NCBI RefSeq assembly: GCF_001528665.1
Contig: NZ_BBYJ01000018.1
Location: 1 to 64,000, forward strand
Length of the DNA: 64,000 bases
Direction: 5' to 3'
DNA from: Microtetraspora malaysiensis
Lineage (GTDB): Bacteria > Actinomycetota > Actinomycetes > Streptosporangiales > Streptosporangiaceae
Position 1 is the first letter of the stretch, and each line of letters begins with the position of its first letter. Both the position numbers and the translations under genes were made by a program. This document shows positions 32,563 to 46,476 of this stretch, piece after piece. The notes below the pieces were generated by a model, which was given only the letters and a program-made list of their open reading frames with translations, searched no databases and was not told where the DNA came from.

Positions 32563-32695
32563 AGATCAGCGTGGACGAGGCAGCTGAGAGCGCCTGAGCG
32601 CTCCCACCACCGTCGCGGGCGGACCGGACCATGCCGTCCGGCCTCGTTCCGTGCCGACCCCTTGTGAGCCGACCCGTTGTGAAAGGACGCAAGCG

Positions 32696-33913
32696 ATGAC
32701 CGAAACCGTGAATCCGGCCGAGGTTCCGCAGTTCCCCGGCGCCCGGGCGGCGCGCTGCCCGTTCGACCCGCCACCGGCCCTGCACGCGTTGCAGGAGCAG
32801 GGACCGCTGGCGAAGGTCAAGGTGTGGGACGGCAGCACGCCGTGGCTGGTGACCCGCTATGAGGAACAGCGGGCGCTGCTCGCCGACCCGAGGGTCAGCG
32901 CCGACGTCACCCGCCCCGGCTACCCGAGATCGGCCCCGGTCGTGTCCAGGAACGGCTCGGCCATCAGCTTCATCCTGATGGACGATCCCGAGCACGCCCG
33001 GCTGCGCCGCATGGTGCAGGCGCCGTTCACCGTCCGGCGGATCGAGACGCTGCGCCCGGCCGTGCAGAAGATCGTGGATGGCCTGATCGACGACATGCTG
33101 GCCGGTCCGAGCCCGGTGGACCTGGTCGAGGCGTTCGCCCTGCCGGTGCCGTCCCTGGTGATCTGCGAGCTGCTCGGCGTCCCCTACGCCGACCACGAGT
33201 TCTTCCAGGACAACAGCAAGATCCTCATCAGGCGTGCGGCCGACCCCGAGGAGCGCGCCGCCGCGTTCGCCCGGCTGGTCGGGTACCTGGACGACCTGGT
33301 CGGGCAGAAGCTCGACCACCCCGGTGAGGACCTGCTCTCCCGGCTGGCCGAGCGGATCAGGACCGGCGAGCTGACCCGGCCGGAGGCCGCCCGGATGGGC
33401 GTGCTGCTGCTGGTCGCCGGACACGAGACCACCGCGAACATGATCGCGCTCGGCACGCTCGCCCTGCTGGAGCACCCCGACCAACTCGACCTGCTCCGCC
33501 GTACGGACGATCCGAAGCTGATCGCCGGGGCGGTGGAGGAGCTGCTGCGCTACCTCAACATCACGCACAGCGGACGCCGCCGCGTCGCCCTGGAGGACAT
33601 CGAGATCGGCGGCCAGGTCATCCGCGCCGGCGACGGGCTGATCCTGGCCAACGACATCGCCAACCGCGACCCGGCGGCCTTCCCGGACCCCGACCGGCTG
33701 GACCTGCGGCGCGACGCCCGCCGTCACGTCGCCTTCGGCTTCGGCGTTCACCAGTGCCTGGGTCAGCCGCTGGCCCGCATGGAGCTGCAGGTCGCCTACG
33801 GCACGCTCTACCGGCGCGTCCCCACACTGCGGCTGGCCACGGAGCTGGAGCGGATCCCGTTCAAGCACGACGGCCAGGTCTACGGCGTCTACGAGCTCCC
33901 CGTGGCCTGGTGA
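32696..33913 (+). CDS. Cytochrome P450 (CYP105-like)
   Basis: A 405-residue soluble bacterial P450. The I-helix A-G-H-E-T-T is at residues 241-246, the E-x-x-R motif is E-E-L-L-R-Y, and the heme loop F-G-F-G-V-H-Q-C-L-G places the thiolate Cys at residue 354. It hydroxylates or otherwise oxidises a small organic molecule with electrons from ferredoxin. The ATG follows AAAGGA. The immediately downstream ferredoxin gene is its likely electron donor. Whether it serves the linaridin cluster 1-10 kb to the right is unknown; no known linaridin requires a P450, and the XRE-cupin gene lies between. Confidence 0.93.
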   Translation: MTETVNPAEVPQFPGARAARCPFDPPPALHALQEQGPLAKVKVWDGSTPWLVTRYEEQRALLADPRVSADVTRPGYPRSAPVVSRNGSAISFILMDDPEHARLRRMVQAPFTVRRIETLRPAVQKIVDGLIDDMLAGPSPVDLVEAFALPVPSLVICELLGVPYADHEFFQDNSKILIRRAADPEERAAAFARLVGYLDDLVGQKLDHPGEDLLSRLAERIRTGELTRPEAARMGVLLLVAGHETTANMIALGTLALLEHPDQLDLLRRTDDPKLIAGAVEELLRYLNITHSGRRRVALEDIEIGGQVIRAGDGLILANDIANRDPAAFPDPDRLDLRRDARRHVAFGFGVHQCLGQPLARMELQVAYGTLYRRVPTLRLATELERIPFKHDGQVYGVYELPVAW

Positions 33914-33962
33914 CCGACGTCACCGGCCCGGCATCCCCATCGACGGAAGGCGAGAGGAACCC

Positions 33963-34157
33963 GTGAAGATAGTCATCGACCAGGACAGGTGCATCGCCTC
34001 CGGGCAGTGCGTGTCCGCCGTCGGCGAGGTGTTCGACCAGCGCGACGAGGACGGCGTCGTGGTGCTGCTCGACCCCACCCCGCCCGCCGACCTGGCCGTC
34101 GCCGTCCGGCAGGCCGCGGCCGTGTGCCCCGCGCGGGCCATCCACGTCGAGGAGTAG
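33963..34157 (+). CDS. 3Fe-4S-type ferredoxin
   Basis: A 64-residue ferredoxin with the single-cluster pattern C-I-A-S-G-Q-C near the N-terminus and C-P near the C-terminus, where the Cys positions fit the 3Fe-4S ferredoxins that accompany actinobacterial P450s. The GTG start has GAGAGGA upstream and lies 49 bp after the P450 stop. It passes electrons from a ferredoxin reductase encoded elsewhere to the P450. Confidence 0.93.
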   Translation: MKIVIDQDRCIASGQCVSAVGEVFDQRDEDGVVVLLDPTPPADLAVAVRQAAAVCPARAIHVEE

Positions 34158-34262
34158 GGGGCCACCGGCAACCGGACACGTCCGCCGCCGGGCGGCGCAG
34201 GATCGGTGCCGAACCGGCAACTCCAGTTGCGATTTCCGGGAGGGGCGCGGTGGAATGGGATC

Positions 34263-34862
34263 GTGGAACAGCAATCTCCGATCGCCGCCGCGCTGGCCCA
34301 GGTCGGCCCCCGGCTCCGGCGCATCCGCACCCAGCGCGGCGTGACCCTGACGGCGCTGGCCGAGGCCACCGGCATCTCCAAGAGCACGCTGTCCCGGCTG
34401 GAGTCGGGACAGCGCCGCCCGAGCCTGGAGCTCCTGCTGCCCATCGCGCAGGCCCACCAGGTGCCGCTGGACGAGCTGGTCGGGGCGCCCGAGGTGGGCG
34501 ACCCCCGGGTCCGCTGCACGCCCCGCGTCCGCAACGGCCGTACGGTGATCCCGCTGACCGTTCAGCCCGGGCCGTTGCAGGCCTGGAAGTCGATCATCCC
34601 GGCGGGGCAGAACCGGCCGGACCTGTGCACGCACGAGGGCTACGAATGGCTGTACGTCCTGTCCGGACGCCTGCGGCTCATCGTGGCCGACCACGATCTG
34701 GTCATGGGCCCCGGTGAGGCCGCCGAGTTCGACACCCGCCTGCCGCACTGGTTCGGCCCCGCCGGCGACTCTCCCGTGGAGGTCCTCAACCTGTTCGGCC
34801 GCCAGGGGGAGCGGATGCACATCCGCGCCCGGCCCCGCTCCCGCGAGAAGGCGGCGACCTGA
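34263..34862 (+). CDS. XRE-cupin transcriptional regulator
   Basis: About 199 residues: an N-terminal lambda-repressor-like helix-turn-helix (residues 15-70: R-L-R-R-I-R-T-Q-R-G-V-T-L, T-G-I-S-K-S-T-L-S-R-L-E-S-G) and a C-terminal cupin barrel (about 105-190: H-E-G-Y-E-W-L-Y-V-L-S-G-R-L-R-L, L-P-H-W-F-G). Such proteins sense a small ligand or metal through the cupin. The GTG at 34263 fits the family start; an upstream in-frame GTG at 34206 would add 19 residues. It follows the P450-ferredoxin pair in the same direction and may regulate it. The 151 bp after it hold nothing recognisable. Confidence 0.85.
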   Translation: MEQQSPIAAALAQVGPRLRRIRTQRGVTLTALAEATGISKSTLSRLESGQRRPSLELLLPIAQAHQVPLDELVGAPEVGDPRVRCTPRVRNGRTVIPLTVQPGPLQAWKSIIPAGQNRPDLCTHEGYEWLYVLSGRLRLIVADHDLVMGPGEAAEFDTRLPHWFGPAGDSPVEVLNLFGRQGERMHIRARPRSREKAAT

Positions 34863-35013: not shown

Positions 35014-36534
35014 CTACGGTCGGGCCGCAGCTCCGTTCTCTGATGCGGCGGACGCGACAAGATCAAGCGGATCAGTGTGGATGCCGAACCGGTGGCGCAG
35101 GGCTCGGCCGGCGGCGTGCACCCCTGACATGCCGTGCACCGCCTGGCCCGGCGGGGTGGAGGCGGAGCAGAGGTAGACCCCGGGCAACGGCGTGCGGTAC
35201 GGGTCCCAGCGGGGAGCCGGGCGCATCATCAACTGCCACAGGGTGGTGGCGCCGCCGGAGATGTCCCCGCCGACATAGTTGGGATTGTGCTGCTGCGCCT
35301 TTGAGGCGGGGACGACATGCGTGGCGAGGATCAGGTCACGGAATCCGGGTGCGAACCGTTCTACCTGCGCGATGACCTGGTCGCTGACATCCCTGGGGGA
35401 GCCGTTCGGCACATGCGCGTACGTCCACAGCACGTGGCGACCGGCGGGCGCGCGGCCGGCGTCCACGACGCCGGGCTGCACCGCCAGGACGTACGGCCGC
35501 TGCGCATGCCGGCCGGCGGCGACCGCCTGTTCCGCGGCCAGCGCCTCAGCCCGCGAACCGACCAGATGCAGTGTGCCGGCCCGGGAGCAGTCAGCGGCCG
35601 CCCATGGCACTGGGCCGGCGAGCGCGAAGTCGACTTTGCAGGCGGCGCCACCGGGCCGGAAGGCGCGCAACTGGCGGCTGTATCGGTCTGGCAGTAGATC
35701 ACCGGCGATGCGCAGCAGCCCGGCCGGCGCCACGTCGAGCAGGACGACGCGGGCGGGCGGCAGCTGCGCCAAGGTGTCGATCCGCTGGCCCGTGGTGATC
35801 CGCCCGCCGAGGCGGGTCAATTCATCGGCCATCGCCCGGGTGATGGTGTGGCTGCCGCCCTGCGGCACCGGCCAACCGACCGCGTGCGCGAGGGCGGCCA
35901 GCACGAGACCCACTCCCGCGGGGGCGAGCGCCTGGGGCGGTGCGATGGCGTGTGCGCCGACACCCGCGAGTAGCGCCGGGGCCTCGCCATTTCGGAACCG
36001 GGCACTCGACAGCGCCGAACCTTGTTCCAGTACCCGTAGCGCCAGCCGCAGCGCCATGCCGGCATTGCGTGGGAGGCTGCGAAAGTCGGACATGGCCGTG
36101 TCGACGAGCGGCTGCCACCCGTCGACCAGGGGGCCGAGCAGCGACCGCCACGCCGGACCGTCCACACCCAGCCCCTGTGCCGTACGGTCCAGGTCACGCC
36201 AGGCCAGCCCGGCGCGACCGCCGTCGAGCGGATGGGCGTACGGGATCTCCGGTTGCAGGAGCCGCACATTGTGCCGGGACAGGTCGAACGCCCGGAAGAA
36301 CGGGGACGCCAGGGCCATCGGATGGACCGCGGAGCAGACGTCGTGCCAGAAATCAGGCAGGGTCAGCTGCTCGGTGCGGGTGCCGCCGCCGATGGTGTCG
36401 GCGGCCTCATAAACCTGCACTTCGAGGCCGGCCGCGGCGAGGACGAGCGCCCCGGCCAGGCCGTTGGGGCCGGAGCCGACCACCACGGCGTCGACGCGGC
36501 CCCGGCCGGAGCCGATGGACTGTGCGTGATTCAC
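35014..36534 (-). CDS. FAD-dependent phytoene-dehydrogenase-like oxidoreductase of the linaridin cluster
   Basis: A 506-residue flavoprotein. The N-terminal dinucleotide-binding motif V-V-V-G-S-G-P-N-G-L-A-G-A-L-V-L-A-A-A-G and the following Y-E-A-A-D-T-I-G-G-G-T-R-T identify the CrtI/phytoene-desaturase-related family. The C-terminus has the FAD-closing segment G-V-Y-L-C-S-A-S-T-P-P-G-Q-A-V-H-G-M-S-G. No carotenoid genes are near. It lies 31 bp after the ABC exporter gene, the last of a five-gene minus-strand run that begins at the precursors, so oxidation of the peptide is plausible. The GTG at 36534 is chosen by homology; the ribosome site is weak. Confidence 0.82.
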   Translation of the reverse strand: MNHAQSIGSGRGRVDAVVVGSGPNGLAGALVLAAAGLEVQVYEAADTIGGGTRTEQLTLPDFWHDVCSAVHPMALASPFFRAFDLSRHNVRLLQPEIPYAHPLDGGRAGLAWRDLDRTAQGLGVDGPAWRSLLGPLVDGWQPLVDTAMSDFRSLPRNAGMALRLALRVLEQGSALSSARFRNGEAPALLAGVGAHAIAPPQALAPAGVGLVLAALAHAVGWPVPQGGSHTITRAMADELTRLGGRITTGQRIDTLAQLPPARVVLLDVAPAGLLRIAGDLLPDRYSRQLRAFRPGGAACKVDFALAGPVPWAAADCSRAGTLHLVGSRAEALAAEQAVAAGRHAQRPYVLAVQPGVVDAGRAPAGRHVLWTYAHVPNGSPRDVSDQVIAQVERFAPGFRDLILATHVVPASKAQQHNPNYVGGDISGGATTLWQLMMRPAPRWDPYRTPLPGVYLCSASTPPGQAVHGMSGVHAAGRALRHRFGIHTDPLDLVASAASENGAAARP

Positions 36535-36565
36535 TCCGGCCGCTCTTTCCGGCCCGGCTTCCAGA

Positions 36566-38428
36566 TCACGCCAGCGCCTGTTCCGCCGCCAACTGGGCGT
36601 AGAGCGGGTCATTCTGAAGGAGTTCGGCGTGCGTTCCGGCGGCCTGTGCTGTGCCGTCCACCATCACCACGATTTGCGCCGCGTGGACCACGGTGGACAG
36701 CCGATGAGCGACCACGATGACCGTGGTGTCGCCGGAGATTTCCCGGATTACCTCCCGCAACGCGGCCTCGTTGGCCGCGTCGAGCTGCGAGGTCGCCTCG
36801 TCGAGCAGGAGCAGGCGGGGTTTGCGCAGCAGGGCCCGGGCGATGGCGACGCGCTGCCGTTCGCCGCCGGACAGCGACACGCCCCGGTGCTGGATCTCCG
36901 CGTCGAGGTCTCCGCCGAGACGCTGCAACAGGGGATCGAGGCGGGTAAGACGCAGCACGGCCCGGATGTCGTCCTCACTGGCGTCCGGTGCCGCGTACGC
37001 GACGTTCTCGCGGAGGGTTCCGGCCAGCACGGGGGCATCCTGCTCGACGTAGCCGATGTTCGCCCGGAGGCTGTTGAGGGGCCAGTCGGCAAGGCTCTGC
37101 TCGTCGAAGAGCACTCGGCCCTGCTGCGGGTCGTAGAACCGCTCCAGAAGTTTGAGCACGGTGGTCTTGCCCGAGCCGGATGGCCCGACGAGCGCGGTCA
37201 GGTTGCCGGAGGGCACGGTCAAGGTGAAGTCACCCAGAGCCGGTTCGGCGCGGCCGGGATAGGTGAAGGTGACCTGATCGAAGGTCACGGAGGCCGGTGT
37301 GGACGAGATTCCGCCGTCCGGCTCCGCCCTTGCCGCCTTGGCCGGGGGGTTCTGCGAGGGGAGCGGCAGGTCGAGCGGTTCGGCCGGCAGCGTGTTCACC
37401 TGGGCTATCCTGCTCAGCGCCGCCCTGCCCGCCTGGAGATAGGTGGTCGCGCTCATCAGTTGGATCACCGGGTGGGTGAGGTAGGCCACGTAGAGCAGGA
37501 AGGCCACCAACGCCGACACGGTCATGGCGCCGCCGGCCACCCGAGCGCCGCCGACCCCGAGGACGACCAGGAAGGCGACCTGGATCGCCAGCCCGGCGGC
37601 GGTGCCTCCCACCGATCCCCAGCGGGCGAGTGACACGCCTTGCTGGTACGCAGAACGGGCCTCGGCGTCGACGCGGGCCAGTTCCGCGGCCTCCATGCCG
37701 GAGGCCTTGACGGTGGTGAAGGCCCCGAAGACCCGCTCCAGGACGGCGCCCATCTCCCCGACCGACTGCTGCGCGCGTAGGGCGGCGATCCGGATCCGCG
37801 GCATGATCACCGCCATGGTGACGACGAGCAGCAGGATGACGACGACGGTGACGCCGAGCAGCACCACGTCGACCACCCCCATCAGGACCACTGCCCCGGC
37901 AAGCATCAGACCGCCGGTCAGCAGGTCGATCAACGCCTGGCTGGCGATCTGGCGCAGCAGCATGGTGTCCGTGGTGACCCGGGCCATCAGGTCGCCGGGT
38001 GCCTGGCTGTGCATGCTCGGAACGGAGAGACGGAGCAGGTGACGGATCAGTCCACGCCGGCCGTCGAGGACGACCGCTTCGGCGGTCCGCAGGGTGAGAT
38101 AGTTGCCGATTCCGAGCAGGACGGCGGCCACCGAGACGAGCACCGTCACGATGACCAGGGCTTGGCCGGTCTCGGTTCCGGTGGTCAACTCGTCGATGAG
38201 GGTTCTCACGGCGAGCGGCTGCAGCAGGCCGAGCACGCTGGAGGCGAGGAGCAGGACGGCGGCCGTGATGAAGGTGGCCCGGTGTGGCCGGATATAGCCG
38301 GCCAGCATCCTCATCCAGTGGCGTGACCCGTCCTGCGGCGGAGGAGCCGGCCGATCGGCGGATGCGGTCGTCTGCGCGGTCTCGCTCGCCTGTGGCGTGT
38401 CCGGCTGCGCTTCCATCGTCTGTGCCAT
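36566..38428 (-). CDS. ABC exporter (fused membrane and ATPase domains), linaridin export
   Basis: A 620-residue type I ABC half-transporter: six membrane helices (about residues 45-340) followed by an ATPase with Walker A G-P-S-G-S-G-K-T-T, signature L-S-G-G-E-R-Q-R, Walker B L-L-L-L-D-E-A-T and an H-loop His (V-A-H-R-L). It has no N-terminal C39 peptidase, so leader removal must be done elsewhere. It overlaps the methyltransferase stop (TGATG). By position and type it corresponds to CypT, exporting the modified peptide and perhaps giving self-protection. Confidence 0.88.
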   Translation of the reverse strand: MAQTMEAQPDTPQASETAQTTASADRPAPPPQDGSRHWMRMLAGYIRPHRATFITAAVLLLASSVLGLLQPLAVRTLIDELTTGTETGQALVIVTVLVSVAAVLLGIGNYLTLRTAEAVVLDGRRGLIRHLLRLSVPSMHSQAPGDLMARVTTDTMLLRQIASQALIDLLTGGLMLAGAVVLMGVVDVVLLGVTVVVILLLVVTMAVIMPRIRIAALRAQQSVGEMGAVLERVFGAFTTVKASGMEAAELARVDAEARSAYQQGVSLARWGSVGGTAAGLAIQVAFLVVLGVGGARVAGGAMTVSALVAFLLYVAYLTHPVIQLMSATTYLQAGRAALSRIAQVNTLPAEPLDLPLPSQNPPAKAARAEPDGGISSTPASVTFDQVTFTYPGRAEPALGDFTLTVPSGNLTALVGPSGSGKTTVLKLLERFYDPQQGRVLFDEQSLADWPLNSLRANIGYVEQDAPVLAGTLRENVAYAAPDASEDDIRAVLRLTRLDPLLQRLGGDLDAEIQHRGVSLSGGERQRVAIARALLRKPRLLLLDEATSQLDAANEAALREVIREISGDTTVIVVAHRLSTVVHAAQIVVMVDGTAQAAGTHAELLQNDPLYAQLAAEQALA

Positions 38429-39192
38429 CACGCGGGACCCTTGCGGTAGACCGAGATGTACATCGGCTCCTGGCTGCTGAACTCGGCGCCGGCCCAGTCG
38501 CTGTAGCGGCCCGCCGGCGTCAGCCCGGCCTGCTCGGCGTAGCCGTCGACCTCTTCGGGCATCGTCAGGCGGCTCAGTTCCTGGGCGATCCGGGAACGGC
38601 CGTTGTCGATCCAGATGTGCGCGAGGTGCCAGATGCGGTTGTCGATGTCGATGGTGGAGTAGGAGAGCAGCCCGGTGTCCGGCGCCGGGTAGGGGACGAA
38701 GAACGAGTCACGGGCCCTGCCCTGGTTGATCATCTGGGCGAAGTTCGGGTTGTGGGTTTCGACGACCACGGTGCCGCCGGGGGCGAGGTGGGCCGCCGTG
38801 ACCTTGAGCACCTGCTGCTGTTCGGCGGGGTCCAGCAGCATCGAAAGGGTGCCGCAGACGCAGTAGATGAGCCCGTAGCGCTGATCGTCGGCGTAGTCGC
38901 GGATGTCGCCGTGCACGGGGGTGACCGGGCGGGGCTGTTCGGCGAGGGAGGCGCGCAGGACGTCGAGCATCTCCGGCGAGGAGTCGACGCCGACGATCGG
39001 GCCGACCAGGCCGGCCAGGGGCAGCGCGATCCGCCCGGTGCCCACCCCGAGTTCCAGGGTCGGCAGGTCTCCGCCGGGGTGCAGATCGGCGAGGAAGGTC
39101 GCGGTCGCCGCCACGGCCGGTCCACCGGGAAAGAGGCGGTCGTAGAAGCCGGCGAACTGGGCGCCGTAGCCGATGTCGGCGATCTCACTCAT
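38428..39192 (-). CDS. SAM-dependent methyltransferase, probable peptide alpha-N-methyltransferase (CypM-like)
   Basis: A 254-residue class I methyltransferase with a Rossmann SAM site: L-E-L-G-V-G-T-G-R-I-A-L-P-L-A (motif I), V-G-V-D-S-S-P-E-M-L (acidic post-I), H-G-D-I-R-D. In cypemycin biosynthesis CypM dimethylates the N-terminal Ala of the mature peptide; all three precursors here have Ala directly before the T-P of the conserved motif, which fits the same job. It overlaps its upstream neighbour by 8 bp. The function is inferred from context plus the fold. Confidence 0.82.
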   Translation of the reverse strand: MSEIADIGYGAQFAGFYDRLFPGGPAVAATATFLADLHPGGDLPTLELGVGTGRIALPLAGLVGPIVGVDSSPEMLDVLRASLAEQPRPVTPVHGDIRDYADDQRYGLIYCVCGTLSMLLDPAEQQQVLKVTAAHLAPGGTVVVETHNPNFAQMINQGRARDSFFVPYPAPDTGLLSYSTIDIDNRIWHLAHIWIDNGRSRIAQELSRLTMPEEVDGYAEQAGLTPAGRYSDWAGAEFSSQEPMYISVYRKGPA

Positions 39193-39769
39193 GGCGGTGG
39201 TCTTCCTGCAGTGGAATGAACTGGGAAATCAGCAGATAGTCCGGATTGTCGGACTCGTCGTAACCGGCACTGCGGGCGATCACGAACTGGAATCCCTTGG
39301 GGGTCGGGTTCGCCCGGTGTTCCTCCCGTACGACGAGCTCGACGCGGTCGCGGAGCACCTGGTAGGCGGGGATCTTGGTGATGTCGAGTTTGGGCTGCGC
39401 GAACGAGACGATCAGTTCGGCGCAGACGTCGAAGACCGCCTTGTCCTGCCGTCGTTCCGGGAACCAGAGCATCTGCCGCCAGGTGCGCCTGGGAATGTGG
39501 GTGGTCTCGGCCCAGGGGGTCTGGACGTCGTCCGCGGTGAGCACCCGGTGCAGGATGTGGAAGTCGTGCTGCGCCGGCTCCGGGGCGAAGAACCGCCAGT
39601 TGCCGATGAGCAGGCCGGTGTAGTCGTAGCGCCGGAACCGGTCGAAGATCTGCTGGGGATGCTGGCTGATGACGGTCACTCCGAACCAGGCGGCCAGGCC
39701 GCCGGTCACCAGTGCGGCGGCCGGCCTGCGGCCGGCCCGGGGCGACGGCGGAGCGGTTCGTGGTCTCAT
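39185..39769 (-). CDS. Small membrane-anchored protein of the linaridin cluster (CypL-like candidate)
   Basis: A 194-residue protein with one predicted membrane helix near the N-terminus (about 18-37) and a soluble domain rich in aromatic residues (N-W-R-F-F-A-P-E-P, F-H-I-L, W-x-E-T-T-H-I-P). It matches no enzyme family I can name. It starts in a TGATG overlap with the HTTM-hydrolase gene and overlaps the methyltransferase by 8 bp. In the cypemycin cluster cypL encodes a similarly small protein next to cypH and is required for production; equivalence here is inferred from size and order only. Confidence 0.65.
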   Translation of the reverse strand: MRPRTAPPSPRAGRRPAAALVTGGLAAWFGVTVISQHPQQIFDRFRRYDYTGLLIGNWRFFAPEPAQHDFHILHRVLTADDVQTPWAETTHIPRRTWRQMLWFPERRQDKAVFDVCAELIVSFAQPKLDITKIPAYQVLRDRVELVVREEHRANPTPKGFQFVIARSAGYDESDNPDYLLISQFIPLQEDHRHE

Positions 39770-41718
39770 CACTTCTCGCCCCCATCGCGGTGCCGCCGGT
39801 CGGATCGTTCCCGCCCGCCGTCGTCGAGGGGTGTGTCGTGCAGGTCGTCGAGAAACGCGGTGAGGATCTTGCTCACCTCGGCGGCCCGGTCGGCGTCGGT
39901 GAGGATCTCGTCGTGGTCGGCGCCCTCGATGAGATGCTGCTGTGCCTGTGGGGCGGCGGTGGCGAACTCATCGTGCAGATCCACCTGTACGGCGTCGGTA
40001 GCGGCGGTCTGGCCCGCGGTGATGACCACGAGGGGGGCGGTGATCCTGGGCAGGACGCCGTCGAACTCCTCGAACTTCTCCTTGACGACCTTCCACTCCC
40101 GGCGGGCGGCGGCCCACAGTTTGGCGTCGCGGTACTGGGCCAGGGCGGTGGCTCGCGCCTCGGGCGGGATCCGGTTCAGCCATCCGGGACGCCGTAGCAG
40201 CGAGCCGAGCCCGAGCTCCATCGACGGGGCCATGAGCGCCAGCGAGTCGGTCAGCACGCGGCCGCCTTCGGCTTGCCGGATGGAACGCTGCAACTCGGCC
40301 GGGTGGCTGGAGTCGATGAGCGCGATGCCCCGCGTCTGGGCGCCGAGTCGCTCGGCGGCCAGCAGCGAGAGATAGCCGCCGAGGGAGTGGCCGACCAGCA
40401 CGATGGGCCGATCGCCTGCGACGTGCCGGGCCACCTCGGTCAGGTCGTCTACCATCGCGTCGAAGTGATATTCGCCGTCGGCCTGGTATCGGCTGCCGCC
40501 GTAGCCGGCCCGCTGGTAGGTGACTGTGGTGAAGCGTTGCGCCAGCTGAGTGGCGATCCGTTCCCAGTGTTCACTGGTGGAGGCCAGGCCGCTTTCCAGG
40601 ATGACCACCGGACCGGTCTCCGCCGCGTCCTCGCCGAGAACGCGGTAGGCCAGGGTGTTGCCCGCTGAGGTGGTCAGCGTACGCTCGTCGCCGCGTCCAC
40701 GGGTGACGATCTGGCGCCGGCGGGCACGGATCGCCTGGCCGGTGGCGAGCAGGGTGAGCGCGGCGGCGGTCACGGTGGCCGGCAGGGCATCGTCGCGACG
40801 GCTGACCACGCCGTCCGGTTCGGTGCGTTCGCGTGGTCCGGTCGTGTAAAGCACCGCCGGATAGGTTGCGGCGAAGGCCCAGAAGAACCGGCCGAGTCCC
40901 ATCATTCGCGCGTTGAGGATGTGGAACATCCCGGCGATGCCGAGGAAGTACGGCGCGGGCCGGCCCCGGAAGGCGAAGACCATGGGGAACGCGCACTCGA
41001 AGGTGAGGACGCCGTGCGCGGCGAGCCGGGTCAGCCGGGGGAAGCGGCGCATCAGCTTCCAGACGTCCGGGTCGCCGTAGGTGTGGGTGCGGATGATGTT
41101 GGGCAGGGCGCGCCCACTGCGCCAGGTATCGCTGGGGAGCTTGGCCCATCCGGAGACCGTGTAGGACAACACCGACTGCAGCGAGACGAACCAGAGGGCG
41201 GCGTCGGCGATGGCGGGTCGGCGGTGACCGGTCCGGGCAACGGTGGTCAGCGCCTGAACCAGGAAGGAGATCTGGTCGGCCCCGTCGCTTCCGTAGAGGT
41301 TCTGGGCGTGCAGGGCGGCCTGGCTGCCGGTGAGCACCGTGTTGACAGCGACTCGTTGCCGAGGGGACAACGGAAGCCAGAGCGCGGCCGCGGCGGCGGC
41401 GCGGCCGGCGTGCAGGGCGGTGCTGACCCGAGGATCCGCGACCAGGTCCAGGGCTTTGGCGAAGCGGGGGGCCCGGTCGTGGAACATGCGGCGGGTGACG
41501 TCCCAGTTGTTGGCACCACCCCACTCCCGGTCCTTGGGACGGGCGAGGTACTCCAGGCTGGCGAGAAGGTGGGTCACCGAATTCAACCGCTCGGTCCAGG
41601 TCAGCACGTGCGATCTGGACAGCGTGGACAGCGACTCGATGGAAGCTCGGGCGCCGCGTCCGGACAGGGCTGAAAGGGCGGCCAGCAGTCGGGGGCGGCC
41701 CTTGGCTGGTGTTTTCAT
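39769..41718 (-). CDS. HTTM-type membrane domain fused to alpha/beta hydrolase (CypH-like)
   Basis: A 649-residue fusion. Residues about 40-330 form a multi-helix domain with HTTM (vitamin K carboxylase-like) features: Y-T-V-S-G-W-A-K-L, D-T-W-R-S-G-R-A-L, F-E-C-A-F-P and G-M-F-H-I-L-N-A-R. Residues about 350-630 are an alpha/beta hydrolase with nucleophile Ser445 in V-G-H-S-L-G-G-Y, oxyanion region L-E-S-G-L-A-S and probable catalytic His in G-A-D-H-D-E. CypH of cypemycin has this same membrane-plus-hydrolase layout and is implicated in dehydration; type B linaridin clusters encode the two parts separately. This is the strongest marker after the precursors. Confidence 0.85.
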   Translation of the reverse strand: MKTPAKGRPRLLAALSALSGRGARASIESLSTLSRSHVLTWTERLNSVTHLLASLEYLARPKDREWGGANNWDVTRRMFHDRAPRFAKALDLVADPRVSTALHAGRAAAAAALWLPLSPRQRVAVNTVLTGSQAALHAQNLYGSDGADQISFLVQALTTVARTGHRRPAIADAALWFVSLQSVLSYTVSGWAKLPSDTWRSGRALPNIIRTHTYGDPDVWKLMRRFPRLTRLAAHGVLTFECAFPMVFAFRGRPAPYFLGIAGMFHILNARMMGLGRFFWAFAATYPAVLYTTGPRERTEPDGVVSRRDDALPATVTAAALTLLATGQAIRARRRQIVTRGRGDERTLTTSAGNTLAYRVLGEDAAETGPVVILESGLASTSEHWERIATQLAQRFTTVTYQRAGYGGSRYQADGEYHFDAMVDDLTEVARHVAGDRPIVLVGHSLGGYLSLLAAERLGAQTRGIALIDSSHPAELQRSIRQAEGGRVLTDSLALMAPSMELGLGSLLRRPGWLNRIPPEARATALAQYRDAKLWAAARREWKVVKEKFEEFDGVLPRITAPLVVITAGQTAATDAVQVDLHDEFATAAPQAQQHLIEGADHDEILTDADRAAEVSKILTAFLDDLHDTPLDDGGRERSDRRHRDGGEK

Positions 41719-41749
41719 GGGGGTGATTCCTGGCTCGTTCCTGGATCGG

Positions 41750-41791
41750 CCCGTTGCCGGGGGAGAGAGTCAGCGGCGCCCCGGCAATGGG
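41750..41791 (-). terminator. Hairpin between the first precursor and the CypH-like gene
   Basis: CCCGTTGCCGGGG (41750-41762) pairs with CCCCGGCAATGGG (41779-41791), 12 of 13 bases. It closely resembles the stem at 42265-42307. Lying 57 bp after the precursor stop, it probably limits read-through so that precursor mRNA exceeds enzyme mRNA. Confidence 0.75.
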
Positions 41792-41847
41792 CTATCCAGG
41801 GCTTTCGCGGTCGCTGGGGTTTGGGGCCGCCGAAGGTGCGGCTTTTG

Positions 41848-42039
41848 TCAATTGGGCAGCGTGCCGGCGCCACGGCCCATCGCATAGCCGGCCGCGAACG
41901 CCGCGACCATGGTCACGACCACGGCGGGCGTCGCCAGTACGGGGGTCTCCGCGGTCAGGCCGCGACCGCCGGTGGTCTCCGTCAGGTCACCGAACATCCC
42001 GGGGGAGACGGCGTTGGTGTAGTCCACGAGAGTGCTCAT
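41848..42039 (-). CDS. Linaridin precursor peptide 1
   Basis: A 63-residue peptide preceded by AAGGAAG. A leader (1-35, with D-Y-T-N-A-V-S-P-G and L-T-E-T-T-G-G-R-G) ends in E-T-P-V-L, followed by A-T-P at 36-38, giving P-V-L-A-T-P, the PxxxTP motif of linaridin precursors (cypemycin precursor: E-T-P-A-M-A-T-P). If cleavage falls before Ala36 as in cypemycin, the core has 28 residues, is hydrophobic and Gly/Ala-rich (F-A-A-G-Y-A-M-G) and ends G-T-L-P-N. It has only three Thr and no Cys or Ser, so at most three dehydrobutyrines. The leader is closely like precursor 3. Confidence 0.85.
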   Translation of the reverse strand: MSTLVDYTNAVSPGMFGDLTETTGGRGLTAETPVLATPAVVVTMVAAFAAGYAMGRGAGTLPN

Positions 42040-42059
42040 GATCCACTTCCTTGGATTTG

Positions 42060-42102
42060 TAGCTGATATGAAAATTGATGGCAGTGTTCTTCATATCAGC
42101 TA
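42060..42102 (-). promoter_or_regulatory. 13-bp inverted repeat upstream of precursor 1
   Basis: TAGCTGATATGAA (42060-42072) and TTCATATCAGCTA (42090-42102) are perfect reverse complements separated by 17 bases, 20 bp upstream of the precursor 1 start. A near copy with the same geometry lies at 42920-42961. The half-site pair suggests a dimeric activator or repressor; the XRE protein encoded at 43050 is the obvious candidate. Confidence 0.82.
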
Positions 42103-42264
42103 AGACAAAGGTCCGCTAGGGCCCATATCGGCTGGGCTTGACCCGTTTGCGGAGCAGCACGCCGATCAAGCTCGCACCGACGCGGCTGGACGGACGGTCT
42201 CATTCCGCGGCCGCGAAGCCGAGGGTGTGGGGTTGGCGGCTGGTCGAGCCGGTCGGGACATCGG
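42103..42264. other. Spacer between precursors 1 and 2 without a gene
   Basis: This 162-bp stretch between the inverted repeat and the hairpin carries no open frame with a ribosome site and no precursor-like motif on either strand. Confidence 0.5.
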
Positions 42265-42307
42265 CCCGTTGCCGGGGTGCCAGGGTCGGCGGCACCCCGG
42301 CAACGGG
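42265..42307 (-). terminator. 17-bp perfect hairpin after precursor 2
   Basis: CCCGTTGCCGGGGTGCC (42265-42281) and GGCACCCCGGCAACGGG (42291-42307) are exact reverse complements around a 9-nt loop, 11 bp after the precursor 2 stop. It is the strongest stem in the window and should end or stabilise the precursor 2 transcript. Confidence 0.85.
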
Positions 42308-42318
42308 TTTGCCCGGAA

Positions 42319-42534
42319 CTATTTCGGCAAGGTGCCGCTGTGGCCGAACGCGTAGCCGGCCGCGAACAGGCCGACCACCGAGCCGACCAGGCCCACGCCG
42401 GCGGCCACGCCCACGATCGTCGCGGGTGTGGCCAGCACCGGCGCCCCGCCGATTTCGTGGCACGGCTCCGTGCTGTAGATCGAGATCGCGGTGAGCGCCG
42501 GGTCGGCGTTCACCTTCTCGGCGAGCAGTGTCAT
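42319..42534 (-). CDS. Linaridin precursor peptide 2
   Basis: A 71-residue peptide preceded by AAGAAGGGT. Its leader differs from the other two (starts M-T-L-L-A-E-K-V-N-A-D-P-A-L) but ends C-H-E-I-G-G-A-P-V-L before A-T-P at 35-37, keeping PxxxTP; the C-x-E-x-x-x-A-P pattern recalls the cypemycin leader end. The predicted 37-residue core is a Gly/Val/Ala stretch (G-V-A-A-G-V-G-L-V-G-S-V-V-G) and shares A-A-G-Y-A-F-G and G-T-L-P-K with precursor 1. It has T36, T39, two Ser and T68 as possible dehydration sites. No own inverted repeat is seen upstream. Confidence 0.83.
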   Translation of the reverse strand: MTLLAEKVNADPALTAISIYSTEPCHEIGGAPVLATPATIVGVAAGVGLVGSVVGLFAAGYAFGHSGTLPK

Positions 42535-42561
42535 GGATCACCCTTCTTGTGCGGAGACATC

Positions 42562-42657
42562 ACTGGGGCAGCTCGTTCGGCTGCGGGTGCGTGCCTTCGG
42601 CCATGTTGCGGGCGAGCGCCGGGTCGGCCTTCACCTTCTCTGCCAGTAATGGAATGG
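42562..42657 (-). pseudogene. Remnant of a fourth precursor gene (start codon lost, core deleted)
   Basis: On the minus strand 31 codons align with precursor genes: I-P-L-L-A-E-K-V-K-A-D-P-A-L matches precursor 2 residues 1-14 with ATT where its ATG stands, and A-R-N-M-A-E-G-T matches the C-terminal A-R-S-M-A-E-G-T of precursor 3. The PxxxTP motif and the core between them are gone. The frame ends in TGA. It looks like a recombination or deletion product between the two precursor types. Confidence 0.7.
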
Positions 42658-42680
42658 ATCATGTTTCTCGCGTCTGGGCG

Positions 42681-42896
42681 TCAGTTGGCCACGGTGCCTT
42701 CGGCCATGCTGCGGGCGATGCCGTACATGTAACCGGCGTGGAAGGCGGCCATGCCGATGGCGACGCCGAGGGCCACGGCCGACGGGGTGGCCAGCACGGG
42801 GGTGGCCGCGGTCAGGCCGCGACCGCCGGTGGTCTCCGTCAGGTCACCGAACTTCCCGGGGGAGATGGTGTTGGTGTAGTCAGCAAGAGTGCTCAT
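42681..42896 (-). CDS. Linaridin precursor peptide 3
   Basis: A 71-residue peptide with a near-perfect ribosome site (GAAGGAGGTG) 5 nt before the ATG. The leader is about 85% like precursor 1 (D-Y-T-N-T-I-S-P-G-K-F-G-D-L-T-E-T-T). T-P-V-L precedes A-T-P at 36-38, again PxxxTP. The predicted 36-residue core is Ala/Gly/Met-rich (G-V-A-I-G-M-A-A-F-H-A-G-Y-M-Y-G) and ends A-E-G-T-V-A-N. Thr/Ser sites: T37, S39, S63, T68. The core has two Tyr, one Phe and one His, unlike known linaridins. It is the first gene of the biosynthetic strand and has its own inverted repeat upstream. Confidence 0.85.
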   Translation of the reverse strand: MSTLADYTNTISPGKFGDLTETTGGRGLTAATPVLATPSAVALGVAIGMAAFHAGYMYGIARSMAEGTVAN

Positions 42897-42919
42897 GATT
42901 CACCTCCTTCGAAGTCACG

Positions 42920-42961
42920 TAGCGGAGATGAAGCGCTAGTGCAGAATTTTCATCTCAGCTA
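42920..42961 (-). promoter_or_regulatory. Inverted repeat upstream of precursor 3 and the XRE gene
   Basis: TAGCGGAGATGAA (42920-42932) and TTCATCTCAGCTA (42949-42961) match in 12 of 13 positions over a 16-nt spacer and share the TAGCtGA-ATGAA half-site with the element at 42060-42102. Here it lies between the precursor 3 start and the divergent XRE gene, so it could control both. Confidence 0.8.
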
Positions 42962-43049
42962 AGGTCTGGAATCGTTAGAATGATGGAGCTTGTGGGCTCC
43001 GTCAACAGTTCCGGCGGGATTCGCCCATTACAGAAGGGGAGAGCGGCCG

Positions 43050-43490
43050 ATGGTTGAGCCACCCGTCCGGTCGACTCTCGCTGAGAAGATCAACCGCCTC
43101 TTCGAGGTTGTCCGGCGCCCAGACCGAGAGCAGTACCGCAACGAGGAGGTGGCCGGTGCCTGCCGGGAGGCGACCGGCGAGAGCTTCTCGGCCACCTATC
43201 TGTGGCAGCTGCGCAATGGCCGCCGAACCAATCCGACCAAGCGTCACCTGGAAGCGCTCGCGCAGTTCTTCCAGGTTCCGCCGGCCTACTTTTTCGACGA
43301 TGAGCAGAGTGAGCGGATCGTGGAAGAGCTGGAACTACTCGGGGCGCTACGAGATAACGCGGTACGCCAGATCGCCCTACGCGCGGTCACGCTGTCGCCC
43401 GAAGGACTCGACACGATCAGTGACATGATCGAGGCGATCGGGCGGCGTGAAGCGCGACGCAAGGGGCCGGCGGGGCGCGATGGCGATTGA
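43050..43490 (+). CDS. XRE-family regulator of the linaridin locus
   Basis: A 146-residue regulator. The helix-turn-helix at about residues 10-80 (S-T-L-A-E-K-I-N-R-L-F, E-V-A-G-A-C-R, F-S-A-T-Y-L-W-Q-L-R-N-G-R-R-T-N-P) resembles the EspR/BldD-like XRE proteins of actinobacteria, followed by P-P-A-Y-F-F-D-D-E and a C-terminal dimerisation helix. AGGGGAGAG precedes the ATG at 43050. It is divergent from the precursors across a shared inverted repeat and overlaps an ImmA/IrrE-type protease gene by 11 bp, the pattern in which the peptidase cleaves or controls the regulator. Confidence 0.88.
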   Translation: MVEPPVRSTLAEKINRLFEVVRRPDREQYRNEEVAGACREATGESFSATYLWQLRNGRRTNPTKRHLEALAQFFQVPPAYFFDDEQSERIVEELELLGALRDNAVRQIALRAVTLSPEGLDTISDMIEAIGRREARRKGPAGRDGD

Positions 43491-43983
43491 CCGGGCGACC
43501 TGGCGCAAGTGCCAGCGGGTCGTCGGCCAGCTGTCGATCCCCTCGCCCTTCGATCCCGACTTGTTCATCTCCGCGCTCGCCGAGCGGCGCGGTCGGATCG
43601 TCGAGTTGATGCCGATGCCGGGTGGCGCCGTGCAATGCGGTGCGCTGATCGCCACCGACGAGGCCGACTACATCTTCTACGCCGCCAGTACCACCCGATT
43701 ACACCGGGAGCACATCCTGCTTCACGAGGTGGGACATCTCCTTTGCGGACACATCGGCGATGCCAAGCTCGAGGCCCTGCCCGAACTTCTGTTACCCAAC
43801 CTCAGCGCGGACCTGGTCCGGCGGGTGCTCGGCCGGACCGACTATTCCGCGGCGGAGGAACAGGAGGCCGAACTGGTCGCCTCGATGGTCGCGCAGCGGG
43901 CCCGCCGCCGGCCGGCCGGATCGGTCGCCCCCGAGCTCGCTGATGGTCTTGCCCGCGTCGGCTCGATCTTCGATACGCGGTGA
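43480..43983 (+). CDS. ImmA/IrrE-family metallopeptidase
   Basis: A 167-residue zinc peptidase with the H-E-V-G-H-L-L-C-G-H motif (HExxH, residues about 81-85) and a downstream acidic helix (E-E-Q-E-A-E-L-V-A-S). ImmA/IrrE proteins cleave XRE-type repressors; the overlapping upstream gene encodes such a protein, so this is its likely substrate. The ATG overlaps the XRE gene end. The peptidase is small and has no signal peptide, so it acts in the cytoplasm. A role in leader removal cannot be excluded but is less likely. Confidence 0.88.
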   Translation: MAIDRATWRKCQRVVGQLSIPSPFDPDLFISALAERRGRIVELMPMPGGAVQCGALIATDEADYIFYAASTTRLHREHILLHEVGHLLCGHIGDAKLEALPELLLPNLSADLVRRVLGRTDYSAAEEQEAELVASMVAQRARRRPAGSVAPELADGLARVGSIFDTR

Positions 43984-43986
43984 CGG

Positions 43987-45150
43987 ATGCTTCAGTGGCT
44001 GAACTACTGCGCCTGCGGGCTCGCCGTCGGTGTCGCAGGATACAAGCTGTTCCGCGTACGCCGAGACCAGCGGGCGCTGGGTCTGCACTATCTGGCGGCG
44101 TTCTTCCTCTGCCTCGGGCTGGCCATGGCGGCCATGGCGCACCCGACGCTGGACCTGGTCAGTCGCTACGAGCCGATGCCCAACACGGCCCGGTTCGTTG
44201 GCAATGCTCTGGAGATGGCGGCGGCCTACTTTCTCGGCGCGCTCGGGCACAGCATCGCCATCCCCGAGCACACGAAGCGATGGCTGCGCCGGTACGGAAT
44301 CATCCTCGCCGGGGCGGTAACCCTGATGGCCGTACTGCTGATCGCGGCCGAGACCACCTACACGCGCAACTTCGTCAACGTCTATTCCAACAGCCCGCTA
44401 GTGGTGGGCTACCTGGCGGTGTTTTTCCTCTATATCACGGTTTGCGTAGTAGCCTTCATGCGGACCATCAGCCGCTATGTGCCACACGCTGAAACCACCA
44501 CTCTGCGGGTCGGATTGCAGTTCGTCGTCGCCGGAGCCGCCGTCGGGATCATCTGGGCCGGTTGGTCCGGAGTCCGGCCGGTAATCACGCTGCTCACCGG
44601 GCAGTCGCTGGCCACCGTCCTTCCGATCGGGACGATGATCGGCGTCACGTGCATCCTGCTCTGGCTCATCGGAGCCACCCTCACCGCCTGGGGAACGTGG
44701 CTGGCCGCGCCGCTGCGCTGGGTGCGGGCGTTCATCCGTCATCGACAGATGGACCCTCTGTGGAGGGCACTGCGGGCGGCCCGACCGCAGATCGCGTTGA
44801 TCGAGACCGCGAAGGTGCTGTGGGACACCGAGTTCGCCCTCTATCGGCGGGTCATCGAGATCCGTGACGCGCAGCTCACGCTCCGGCCGTACGCGCACCC
44901 GGCCGTGCCGCAGTGGGTGGGCCCGGCGGCGGATCCGGCCACACTGGAGGCCGCGGTGATCGCGGCGTCCCTGATCGGCTATGCCGCCGGGCGCAACTAC
45001 AACGCCGAGCACCCCTTCCACGACGTCGATCCGTCGATCACCTCGGAGAGCGCCTGGCTGGTGCGGGTGAGCCGAGAGTTCACGAAGTCGGCGGTCGTCG
45101 CGCGGGTGCGGGAACGCGCCACCGCCGAGGCGGAGCACTCGACACCGTGA
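43987..45150 (+). CDS. MAB_1171c-type (DUF6545-like) membrane protein
   Basis: A 387-residue protein with seven or eight membrane helices in residues 1-240 and a C-terminal cytoplasmic domain (Y-R-R-V-I-E-I-R-D-A-Q-L-T-L-R-P-Y) typical of the MAB_1171c family, often annotated as putative transporter. It starts three bases after the ImmA/IrrE gene. The triad XRE, ImmA/IrrE, MAB_1171c recurs in actinobacteria; a signalling route from membrane protein through peptidase to repressor is inferred. Confidence 0.82.
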   Translation: MLQWLNYCACGLAVGVAGYKLFRVRRDQRALGLHYLAAFFLCLGLAMAAMAHPTLDLVSRYEPMPNTARFVGNALEMAAAYFLGALGHSIAIPEHTKRWLRRYGIILAGAVTLMAVLLIAAETTYTRNFVNVYSNSPLVVGYLAVFFLYITVCVVAFMRTISRYVPHAETTTLRVGLQFVVAGAAVGIIWAGWSGVRPVITLLTGQSLATVLPIGTMIGVTCILLWLIGATLTAWGTWLAAPLRWVRAFIRHRQMDPLWRALRAARPQIALIETAKVLWDTEFALYRRVIEIRDAQLTLRPYAHPAVPQWVGPAADPATLEAAVIAASLIGYAAGRNYNAEHPFHDVDPSITSESAWLVRVSREFTKSAVVARVRERATAEAEHSTP

Positions 45151-45277: not shown

Positions 45278-45883
45278 ATGCGTGTTTCATCGAGCATGAG
45301 TTATCGGGATCGGCTGAACGAGAAGCTGTTCCAGCAACGGACCCTGCTGCTGACCGGCGAGGTCGACGACGAGATGGCCGAGCGGGCGTGCGCCGAGATG
45401 GTGTTGCTCGCCTCGGCCGATGCCGAACGCGACATCATCCTGTACATCAATTCGCCCGGAGGGTCGGTGCTGGCCGGGCTGGCGATCTACGACACCATGA
45501 AGCTGGTCCCGAACGACGTGGTCACCGTCGCGCTCGGGTTCGCCGCGAGCATGGGGCAGGTGCTGCTGGCGTCCGGCACACACGGCAAGCGGATCAGCCT
45601 CGCACACAGCCGGATCATGATGCACCAGCCGTCGGCCGGCATCGGCGGCACGGCGATCGACATCGCGATCCAGTCCGAGAACCTCCAGTACATGAAGCGG
45701 CAGTCTGAGGAGATCCTCGCCGCGGAGACGGGACGCACGATCGAGGAGATCGCCGCCGACAGCGACCGGGACCGCTGGTTCACCCCGGAGCAGGCCCGCG
45801 CCTACGGGATCATCGACGAGATCGTCGACTCCTTCCACAGCCTCGCGCCGTACGCCGCTCACCCGATGGGATTCTCGTCATGA
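45278..45883 (+). CDS. clpP3: ATP-dependent Clp protease proteolytic subunit (ClpP3-like)
   Basis: A 201-residue ClpP peptidase. The catalytic triad is visible: Ser in G-F-A-A-S-M-G-Q, His in M-M-H-Q-P-S and Asp in [10 protein letters not shown]. The I-N-S-P-G-G-S-V oxyanion loop is intact. It overlaps the next clpP gene by 4 bp (ATGA), the organisation of the inducible clpP3-clpP4 operon of streptomycetes, which substitutes for ClpP1-ClpP2. An alternative ATG lies six codons in. A PopR-like box precedes it. Confidence 0.9.
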
Positions 45884-46476
45884 CGCAGTACACGATCCCG
45901 TACGTGGTCGAACGGACCCCGGTGGGGGAGCGGTCGTTCGACATCTTCAGCCGGCTGCTCAACGAGCGGATCATCTTCCTCGGAACCGAGATCGACGACG
46001 GCGTCGCGAACGTCGTGATGGCACAGTTGCTCCACCTGGAGGCGGAGAGCCCCGACCAGGAGATCAACCTGTACATCAACTCTCCCGGCGGCTCGACGAC
46101 CGCGATGCTCGCGATCTACGACACCATGCAGTTCATCCGCGCGAAGGTCGCGACGTACTGCATGGGCCAGGCGGCATCCGCCGCCGCGGTGTTGCTCGCC
46201 GCCGGAGCCCCCGGGCGGCGGTTCGCGCTCTCCCACTCCCGCGTGCTGCTGCACCAGCCGTCCTCGCAGGGGCAGGGCACCATCTCCGACCTGACCTTGC
46301 AGGCGGCCGAGATAATGCGCGTGCGCACGCAGACCGAGGAGATCCTCAGCTCCCACACCGGAGTGGACGTCGCCCAGCTGCGCAAGGACACCAGCCGGGA
46401 CCGGGTCTTCAACGCTCGCGAGGCCATCGAGTACGGCCTGGTCGACGAGCTGATCATCACCCGCGAGACGTTGTAG
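45880..46476 (+). CDS. clpP4: ATP-dependent Clp protease proteolytic subunit (ClpP4-like)
   Basis: A 198-residue ClpP. It has I-N-S-P-G-G-S-T, the catalytic Ser in M-G-Q-A-A-S-A-A-A, His in L-L-H-Q-P-S and the R-D-R-V-F-N helix with the triad Asp. Co-translated with the upstream paralogue, it should form a mixed double-ring tetradecamer working with a Clp ATPase encoded elsewhere. The stop lies 3 bp from the end of the convergent popR-like gene. Confidence 0.92.

Follow-up and report, generated by a model that had tools for sequence, protein, structure and literature searches.

Linaridins, a group of ribosomally synthesized and post-translationally modified peptides (RiPPs), are known for their dehydrated Thr residues, and the working of the membrane protein pair encoded in their clusters, here called H and L, is little understood. 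Separate genes for the HTTM and hydrolase parts of H define the type B linaridins. LinL serves to identify linaridin clusters (PMC9927463). GrmL is reported to be essential for grisemycin and to be a potential peptide epimerase, and several D-residues occur in some type A linaridins (PMC10373908). Clusters that keep H and L with few or no Thr residues in their peptides help to separate dehydration from other activities of this pair. Such an operon was analysed in a stretch of 64,000 nucleotides (the window; contig NZ_BBYJ01000018.1, positions 1 to 64,000) of the soil actinobacterium Microtetraspora malaysiensis. It runs along the minus strand from 42896 to 35014 in the order A1, A2, A3, H, L, M, T, OX, and it is probably a Thr-poor, multi-peptide linaridin-pathway RiPP cluster, for which a scheme of modification, cleavage and export can be put forward. 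Among the open-literature matches listed, in the passages available from them, no description of Thr-poor linaridins was found; the survey of Georgiou et al. (2020) lies outside this scope.

Gene content and conservation of the operon

All genes of the set reported in an initial annotation of the window, A1 through OX, are present in the list of open reading frames (ORFs). That annotation had placed them on one strand with overlaps. The statement on the strand is limited to A1-OX, since the adjoining XRE-type regulator gene (42990-43490) lies on the plus strand; each junction from H to OX overlaps, whereas A1, A2 and A3 are free of overlaps.

H (39769..41718, minus strand, as are all operon genes) is a CypH-like fusion protein of 649 amino acids with an HTTM domain at residues ~1-300 and an alpha/beta-hydrolase domain at ~345-630 (Pfam: HTTM 25.8 bits, Abhydrolase_6 69.1 bits). 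As a single frame, it departs from the type B arrangement. The closest reference was locus L037, the only one of two matches above the cut-off when 394 genomes of the class were searched with the NCBIfam CypA model (precursor score 98.4 bits, cut-off 35). H is 28% identical to the CypH homologue of L037 (E 4e-31), which bears out the fusion in CypH layout proposed earlier. Residues S445, D469, H602 and K193 are invariant in 14/14 aligned H proteins, the CypH homologue among them, and K193 in 18/18 HTTM domains; the first three may form a catalytic triad. In the model (predicted local confidence, pLDDT, 78) the hydrolase half takes an alpha/beta-hydrolase fold, which aligned with a haloalkane dehalogenase over 261 residues (Z 27.4, root mean square deviation 2.8). 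A structure search with the whole of H returned hydrolase folds at residues ~336-629 and barely probed the HTTM half. By sequence, the best candidate for a solved relative of the HTTM domain was an antibody chain (E 0.024), and none was convincing.

L (39185..39772) has one predicted N-terminal helix (model residues 16-36). Over residues 33-126 it shares 37% identity with the protein following H in L037 (E 3e-12), in agreement with the earlier label of a small CypL-like protein. Weak matches to Pfam DUF5819 were obtained for 13/19 members of the L family, L itself counted, and with the model of L (pLDDT 70) no structure match fell below E 0.18. At L037 the homologues of H, L and M stand in the same order as here, so that the linaridin assignment of the initial annotation holds at the level of the genes; A1-A3 stay below the cut-offs of the linaridin precursor models. 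Based on these comparisons of sequence, assignment to the linaridin pathway is supported.

M (38428..39192) carries methyltransferase domains (Pfam) and is an S-adenosylmethionine-dependent methyltransferase, presumably the N-terminal peptide dimethylase. Against solved structures it matched YunM best (7wzf, 273 bits; 51% identity in the aligned part), with CcbJ next and CypM at 42.7 bits (7wzg). YunM, from Streptomyces yunnanensis, is itself 81% and 79% identical to the M proteins of loci L104 and L129. These matches agree with the N-methyltransferase proposed before, but the best curated model for M is that of the daptide methyltransferase (NF041820 daptide_MTase), with 82 bits under a cut-off of 175. 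That match raises a daptide-like cluster as an alternative. Daptides (PMC10036551) share with the window several aliphatic-rich precursors per cluster and a related methyltransferase, but they depend on MpaB, MpaC and MpaD and on an invariant Thr at the C-terminus. The window cores lack a C-terminal Thr and end in Asn (A1), Lys (A2) and Asn (A3), MpaB/C/D are not listed for the operon, and for the operon proteins Pfam listed no match to an aminotransferase or an alcohol dehydrogenase. Together with the NF041820 score below the cut-off, this makes a daptide-like cluster extremely improbable.

T (36566..38431) is an ABC exporter (Pfam ABC_membrane and ABC_tran) without a Pfam Peptidase_C39 match at E up to 1. 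OX (35014..36612) is a flavin adenine dinucleotide (FAD)-dependent oxidoreductase of the amine oxidase / phytoene desaturase superfamily (Pfam Amino_oxidase, 53.6 bits; CrtO model, 99.6 bits, far below the cut-off of 1000). It was aligned with 10 orthologues at 36-87% identity, and its matches to PDB chains lie mostly in the FAD-binding start. The annotation had set this enzyme apart from cypemycin. OX was indeed not found in the stretches of L037 and of L127, another cypemycin/grisemycin-type locus, but it has homologues in 38/60 annotated loci, including the Thr-rich split loci L104, L129, L131 and L132. The Pfam lists of the operon proteins, which alone were scanned, contained no flavoprotein decarboxylase or CypD-like match, as had been stated before.

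The genome measures 8.8 Mb in 53 contigs, and close relatives of the whole operon are found in Microtetraspora fusca (L009), Sphaerimonospora thailandensis and S. mesophila (stretches L010 and L011). H, L, M, T and OX are 80-98% identical across these three species, and at E 1e-5 an HTTM match was obtained in 9/297 genomes of the family searched, the own genome counted. The cluster is a real and conserved locus of the linaridin pathway, and it is probably functional. A decaying, silent cluster would account for a precursor remnant between A1 and A2 (42560..42658, minus strand), in which an A2-like leader start is fused to an A1-like tail resembling the A1 tails of L010 and L011; the remnant lacks a core, and no start codon was seen. 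With all operon genes open, H to OX conserved to the extent given above and a ratio of non-synonymous to synonymous differences (pN/pS) of 0.15-0.43 for A2 over six species pairs, decay of the operon is very unlikely.

Precursor peptides and Thr-poor cores

The three precursors are ORFs. A1 (42681..42896, 71 amino acids) consists of a leader, the motif PVLATP and a core of 33 amino acids (~42684-42782). A2 (42319..42534, 71 amino acids) has a second leader type, LLAEKVN, followed by PVLATP and a Gly-rich core of 34 amino acids (~42322-42423), and A3 (41848..42039, 63 amino acids) an A1-like leader, PVLATP and a core of 25 amino acids (~41851-41925). The linaridin motif PxxxTP claimed for A1, A2 and A3 is thus present as PVLATP in each of them. 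A purine-rich stretch lies directly 5' of each ATG. Identity with the counterparts in L009, L010 and L011 amounts to 96%, 72% and 76% for A1 and to 94%, 83% and 88% for A2; A3 is 86% identical in L009, and no copy of its own was found in L010 or L011. Gapless comparison of the window with L009 gave a pN/pS of 0.22 for A1, 0.15 for A2 and 0.54 for A3, the last of which may lose register in the final codons. The evidence of conservation as a protein is weaker for A1, as its ratio spans 0.22-1.07 over the six species pairs. A fourth small ORF of M. fusca (L009:9677-9868) has an A2 leader, the degenerate motif PVLCVTA and a different core.

When the three peptides were searched against linaridin precursor profiles, the check that had been suggested for them, no model reached its cut-off. 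The best NCBIfam model for A1 was linaridin_RiPP (14.0 bits) and A3 matched linaridin_CypA weakly (12.2 bits), both below the cut-off of 35, and A2 had no NCBIfam linaridin match. Of nine more Thr-poor precursors, taken from eight other loci, four had a sub-cut-off linaridin match and five had none. Current precursor models overlook the tested peptides, which on four annotated Streptomyces plasmids are recorded as hypothetical proteins. With few Thr residues and no precursor model passing its cut-off, the dehydration implied by the earlier linaridin label is less certain.

The type A loci of cypemycin and grisemycin (L037 and L127) have in common with the window a fused H, an L gene and a PxxxTP motif ahead of the core; an M homologue is present in L037 and was found in L127 with YunM as the query. 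Their cores differ, having 19 amino acids, three Thr and a C-terminal Cys, whereas the cores of A1-A3 contain no Cys. OX and the decarboxylase separate the two arrangements as described above. The type-B-like Thr-rich split loci L104, L129, L131 and L132 resemble the window in OX (51-56% identity in all four), in M (50-51% in two) and in T (36% in three). They differ in their separate HTTM and hydrolase genes, which also occur in 6/32 Thr-poor clusters, and in having one motif-bearing precursor each, with 3-6 Thr. Corynaridin (PMC9927463) is likewise a linaridin with PxxxTP and without decarboxylase or C-terminal Cys, but its single precursor carries seven Thr towards the C-terminus, and its cluster includes an SDR gene and lacks a methyltransferase.

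For a broader comparison, 60 annotated loci were assembled: the window, its three relatives, nine plasmid records, seven earlier stretches and 40 stretches representing part of the strong matches to an L profile. At E 1e-4 this profile matched 53/394 genomes of the class and 102/246 of one genus; at E 1e-20, 17 and 33 of those genomes remained, the others having mostly short matches of ~25-35 bits. HTTM, hydrolase, L, M, T and OX were all present in 34/60 loci. In 36 loci H was a single fused gene and in 14 it was split; the remaining 10 allowed no decision. Thirty-two loci were assigned to a Thr-poor group and six to a classic group by hand, with the list already seen; three belong to neither (L130, L133 and L135, with longer tails and 2, 6 and 5 Thr), and 19 were without an accepted motif precursor, among them L030, L102, L115, L117 and L126. 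The 32 Thr-poor clusters are every locus with a curated precursor in the 42-row half of the HTTM tree described below. Because L132 (PVLCTP, 3 Thr) was lost to the regular expression, the classic group was reduced to five cores.

The 63 curated cores of the 32 clusters, the window counted, were found by the criterion PxxxTP, on the same strand as L and in the 3.5 kb searched upstream of HTTM. Two precursors missed by the scan (L025, L026) were entered by hand; a third annotated small protein of L024 without PxxxTP and the fourth M. fusca precursor with its degenerate motif were not counted. These cores contain 5.7% Thr, 2.1% Ser and 45.6% Gly+Ala, compared with 16.8% Thr and 26% Gly+Ala in the five classic cores. 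The contrast is descriptive, given the manual grouping and a classic set of few cores, some of them nearly identical. At most two Thr are present in 47/63 cores, and eight have none. Two or three curated cores occur in 27/32 clusters, often with two leader types side by side (e.g. IAxFMN or DYTN and IIESV or LLxEKVN). The full gene set is present in 30/32 of these clusters, OX not having been found in L032 and L038. The 59 unique cores hold 80 GxxxG pairs, a number reached in none of 500 composition-preserving shuffles (44.9 ± 5.9), although the shuffles overstate this excess because the cores are related. Unusual long Ala/Asn-rich cores after PTLGTP were seen in L116 and L123, where OX lies upstream of H.

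In the HTTM tree (60 rows, midpoint root), the window groups with its three Streptosporangiaceae relatives (100/100), and these four belong to a set of 42 rows containing each of the 32 Thr-poor clusters. Six rows, those of the cypemycin-type and the split Thr-rich loci, group apart (99/95), a join flagged as a possible long-branch effect, and support for the division into two large halves is weak (52/99).

Proposed pathway and the role of H and L

The cores bear on what H and L do. Each window core has one or two Thr and retains a Ser or Thr close to its first residue (S1, T2, T5), so that some dehydration is possible. Alternatively, the cluster may be an ordinary linaridin cluster that mainly dehydrates the few Ser/Thr present, its Thr-poor cores reflecting sequence drift only. 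A Ser or Thr falls within the first five residues of each window core; across the window and its three relatives T2 of A2 is kept and the first residue of A1 is Ser or Thr; and 7/8 Thr-free cores keep a Ser, while five of the eight have a Thr-bearing sister core in their cluster. Against this, L116, L118 and L119 keep H and L with a Thr-free core as the sole curated one, although other precursors may have been missed there. We consider this explanation possible yet rather doubtful.

A second alternative is SdpAB-like maturation, with H and L as relatives of SdpB and SdpA that assist in processing and exporting nearly unmodified two-peptide bacteriocins, and with M and OX making terminal changes only. 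An HTTM protein adjoins a small partner in L105-L109, as in SdpA/SdpB, and the HTTM proteins of L105 and L107, which stand beside L homologues without a hydrolase match, match SdpB weakly (E 1.4e-6 and 0.003, far under the cut-off). The core composition also resembles that of GxxxG-rich two-peptide bacteriocins: the class IIb members likewise comprise two GxxxG-rich peptides, but have a different leader and are not known to have modifying enzymes. The window's own HTTM domain gave no match to the SdpB model TIGR04033 at E up to 0.5, and the stretches of L105-L109 contained no hydrolase, M or OX match. Hydrolase, M and PxxxTP are shared by the window and the cypemycin-type loci and would not be expected of SdpAB. 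Maturation of this kind is unlikely.

For a Thr-poor linaridin-pathway cluster, the following course can be proposed. Upon relief of the XRE repressor, A1-A3 would be made. The membrane pair H-L would bind their leaders and act on the cores, where the few Ser/Thr residues close to the N-terminus (S1, T2, T5) would be dehydrated and other residues would probably be epimerised. The leader would be cleaved after PxxxTP, for which the hydrolase domain of H is a candidate, and M would then dimethylate the newly exposed N-terminus, OX would perform one oxidation and T would export the peptides. The Gly/Ala-rich GxxxG cores could then act jointly as hydrophobic bacteriocins against related actinobacteria.

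We infer that H and L act in this cluster at least partly through a reaction other than dehydration, perhaps epimerisation. A wider proposal is made tentatively: in a widespread subgroup, H-L might mainly epimerise Ala/Val-rich cores rather than dehydrate Thr, with cooperating membrane peptides packed through GxxxG and containing D-residues as the outcome, and K193 as the base. In vitamin-K-dependent carboxylase, an HTTM lysine is the base. The Thr-poor set makes the question whether H-L is an epimerase, a dehydratase or both directly testable.

Several points weigh against our interpretation of the operon. The cluster is known from its genes, the peptide products being predicted, and the chemistry of H and L is drawn from relatives at 28-37% identity. 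The HTTM match of H (25.8 bits) is just short of the Pfam cut-off of 27.7, and the hydrolase domain and OX are placed by family, so that their roles are putative. All 12 Thr-poor precursors tested, from nine loci, fall under the NCBIfam linaridin cut-offs. At least one Thr, Ser or Cys is present in 63/63 cores, which makes plain dehydration possible, and the GxxxG excess carries the bias mentioned above.

Candidate regulatory region and neighbouring genes

Two inverted repeats, likely operators, precede precursor genes. The first, before A1 (42920..42961), has arms of 13 bp with 12/13 positions matching and reads TAGCTGAGATGAA-N16-TTCATCTCCGCTA; the second, before A3 (42060..42102), has arms of 13 bp matching at 13/13 positions and reads TAGCTGATATGAA-N17-TTCATATCAGCTA. 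Throughout the 8.8 Mb genome the repeat pattern occurs at these two sites only, and a control pattern at none. The repeats recur in the three close relatives with the same arm offset of 29-30 bp; scanning of the stretches L010 and L011 revealed a single pair. Before the first precursor of three Streptomyces loci with the XRE cassette no repeat like TAGCTGATATGAA was found, so that the likely operator is supported for the window and its three relatives only.

The XRE-type regulator (42990..43490, plus strand; weak helix-turn-helix match under the cut-off) is the candidate repressor of the cluster. It is followed on the same strand by a putative M78 (ImmA/IrrE-like) metallopeptidase, its presumed partner (43447..43983; weak Peptidase_M78 match, E 0.03, under the cut-off; HExxH in the translation), and by a membrane protein with a C-terminal DUF6545 (43987..45150; PF20182, 104 bits) as the third gene of the cassette. 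The three genes stand beside the cluster in the window genome and the three relatives, divergently upstream in two of the four genomes and downstream in two. They also adjoin three Streptomyces clusters (L110-L112), and an XRE match adjoins the L-HTTM pair of L106.

Downstream of the operon, on the opposite strand, lie genes for a P450, a ferredoxin and an XRE-cupin protein (32651-34862). They were considered as tailoring genes and rejected, being present beside the M. fusca cluster but not found within the stretches L010 and L011. A ClpP pair (45278-46476) follows the regulatory cassette, and the genome has further ClpP copies. A role of the pair in self-resistance was dismissed likewise: it is not adjacent to the cluster in Sphaerimonospora, where one genome has a 96% identical copy on contig C85 with the cluster on C78, and the best copy of the other is merely 58% identical.

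Two other arrangements of H and L were seen on plasmids. In a Tsukamurella plasmid (L023:8712-11335), H and L accompany a Gly/Ala-rich small protein without PxxxTP, and the stretch gave no match to M, T or OX. On the Streptomyces plasmids L027 and L029, split HTTM and hydrolase genes and L stand beside lantibiotic dehydratase and LanC genes.

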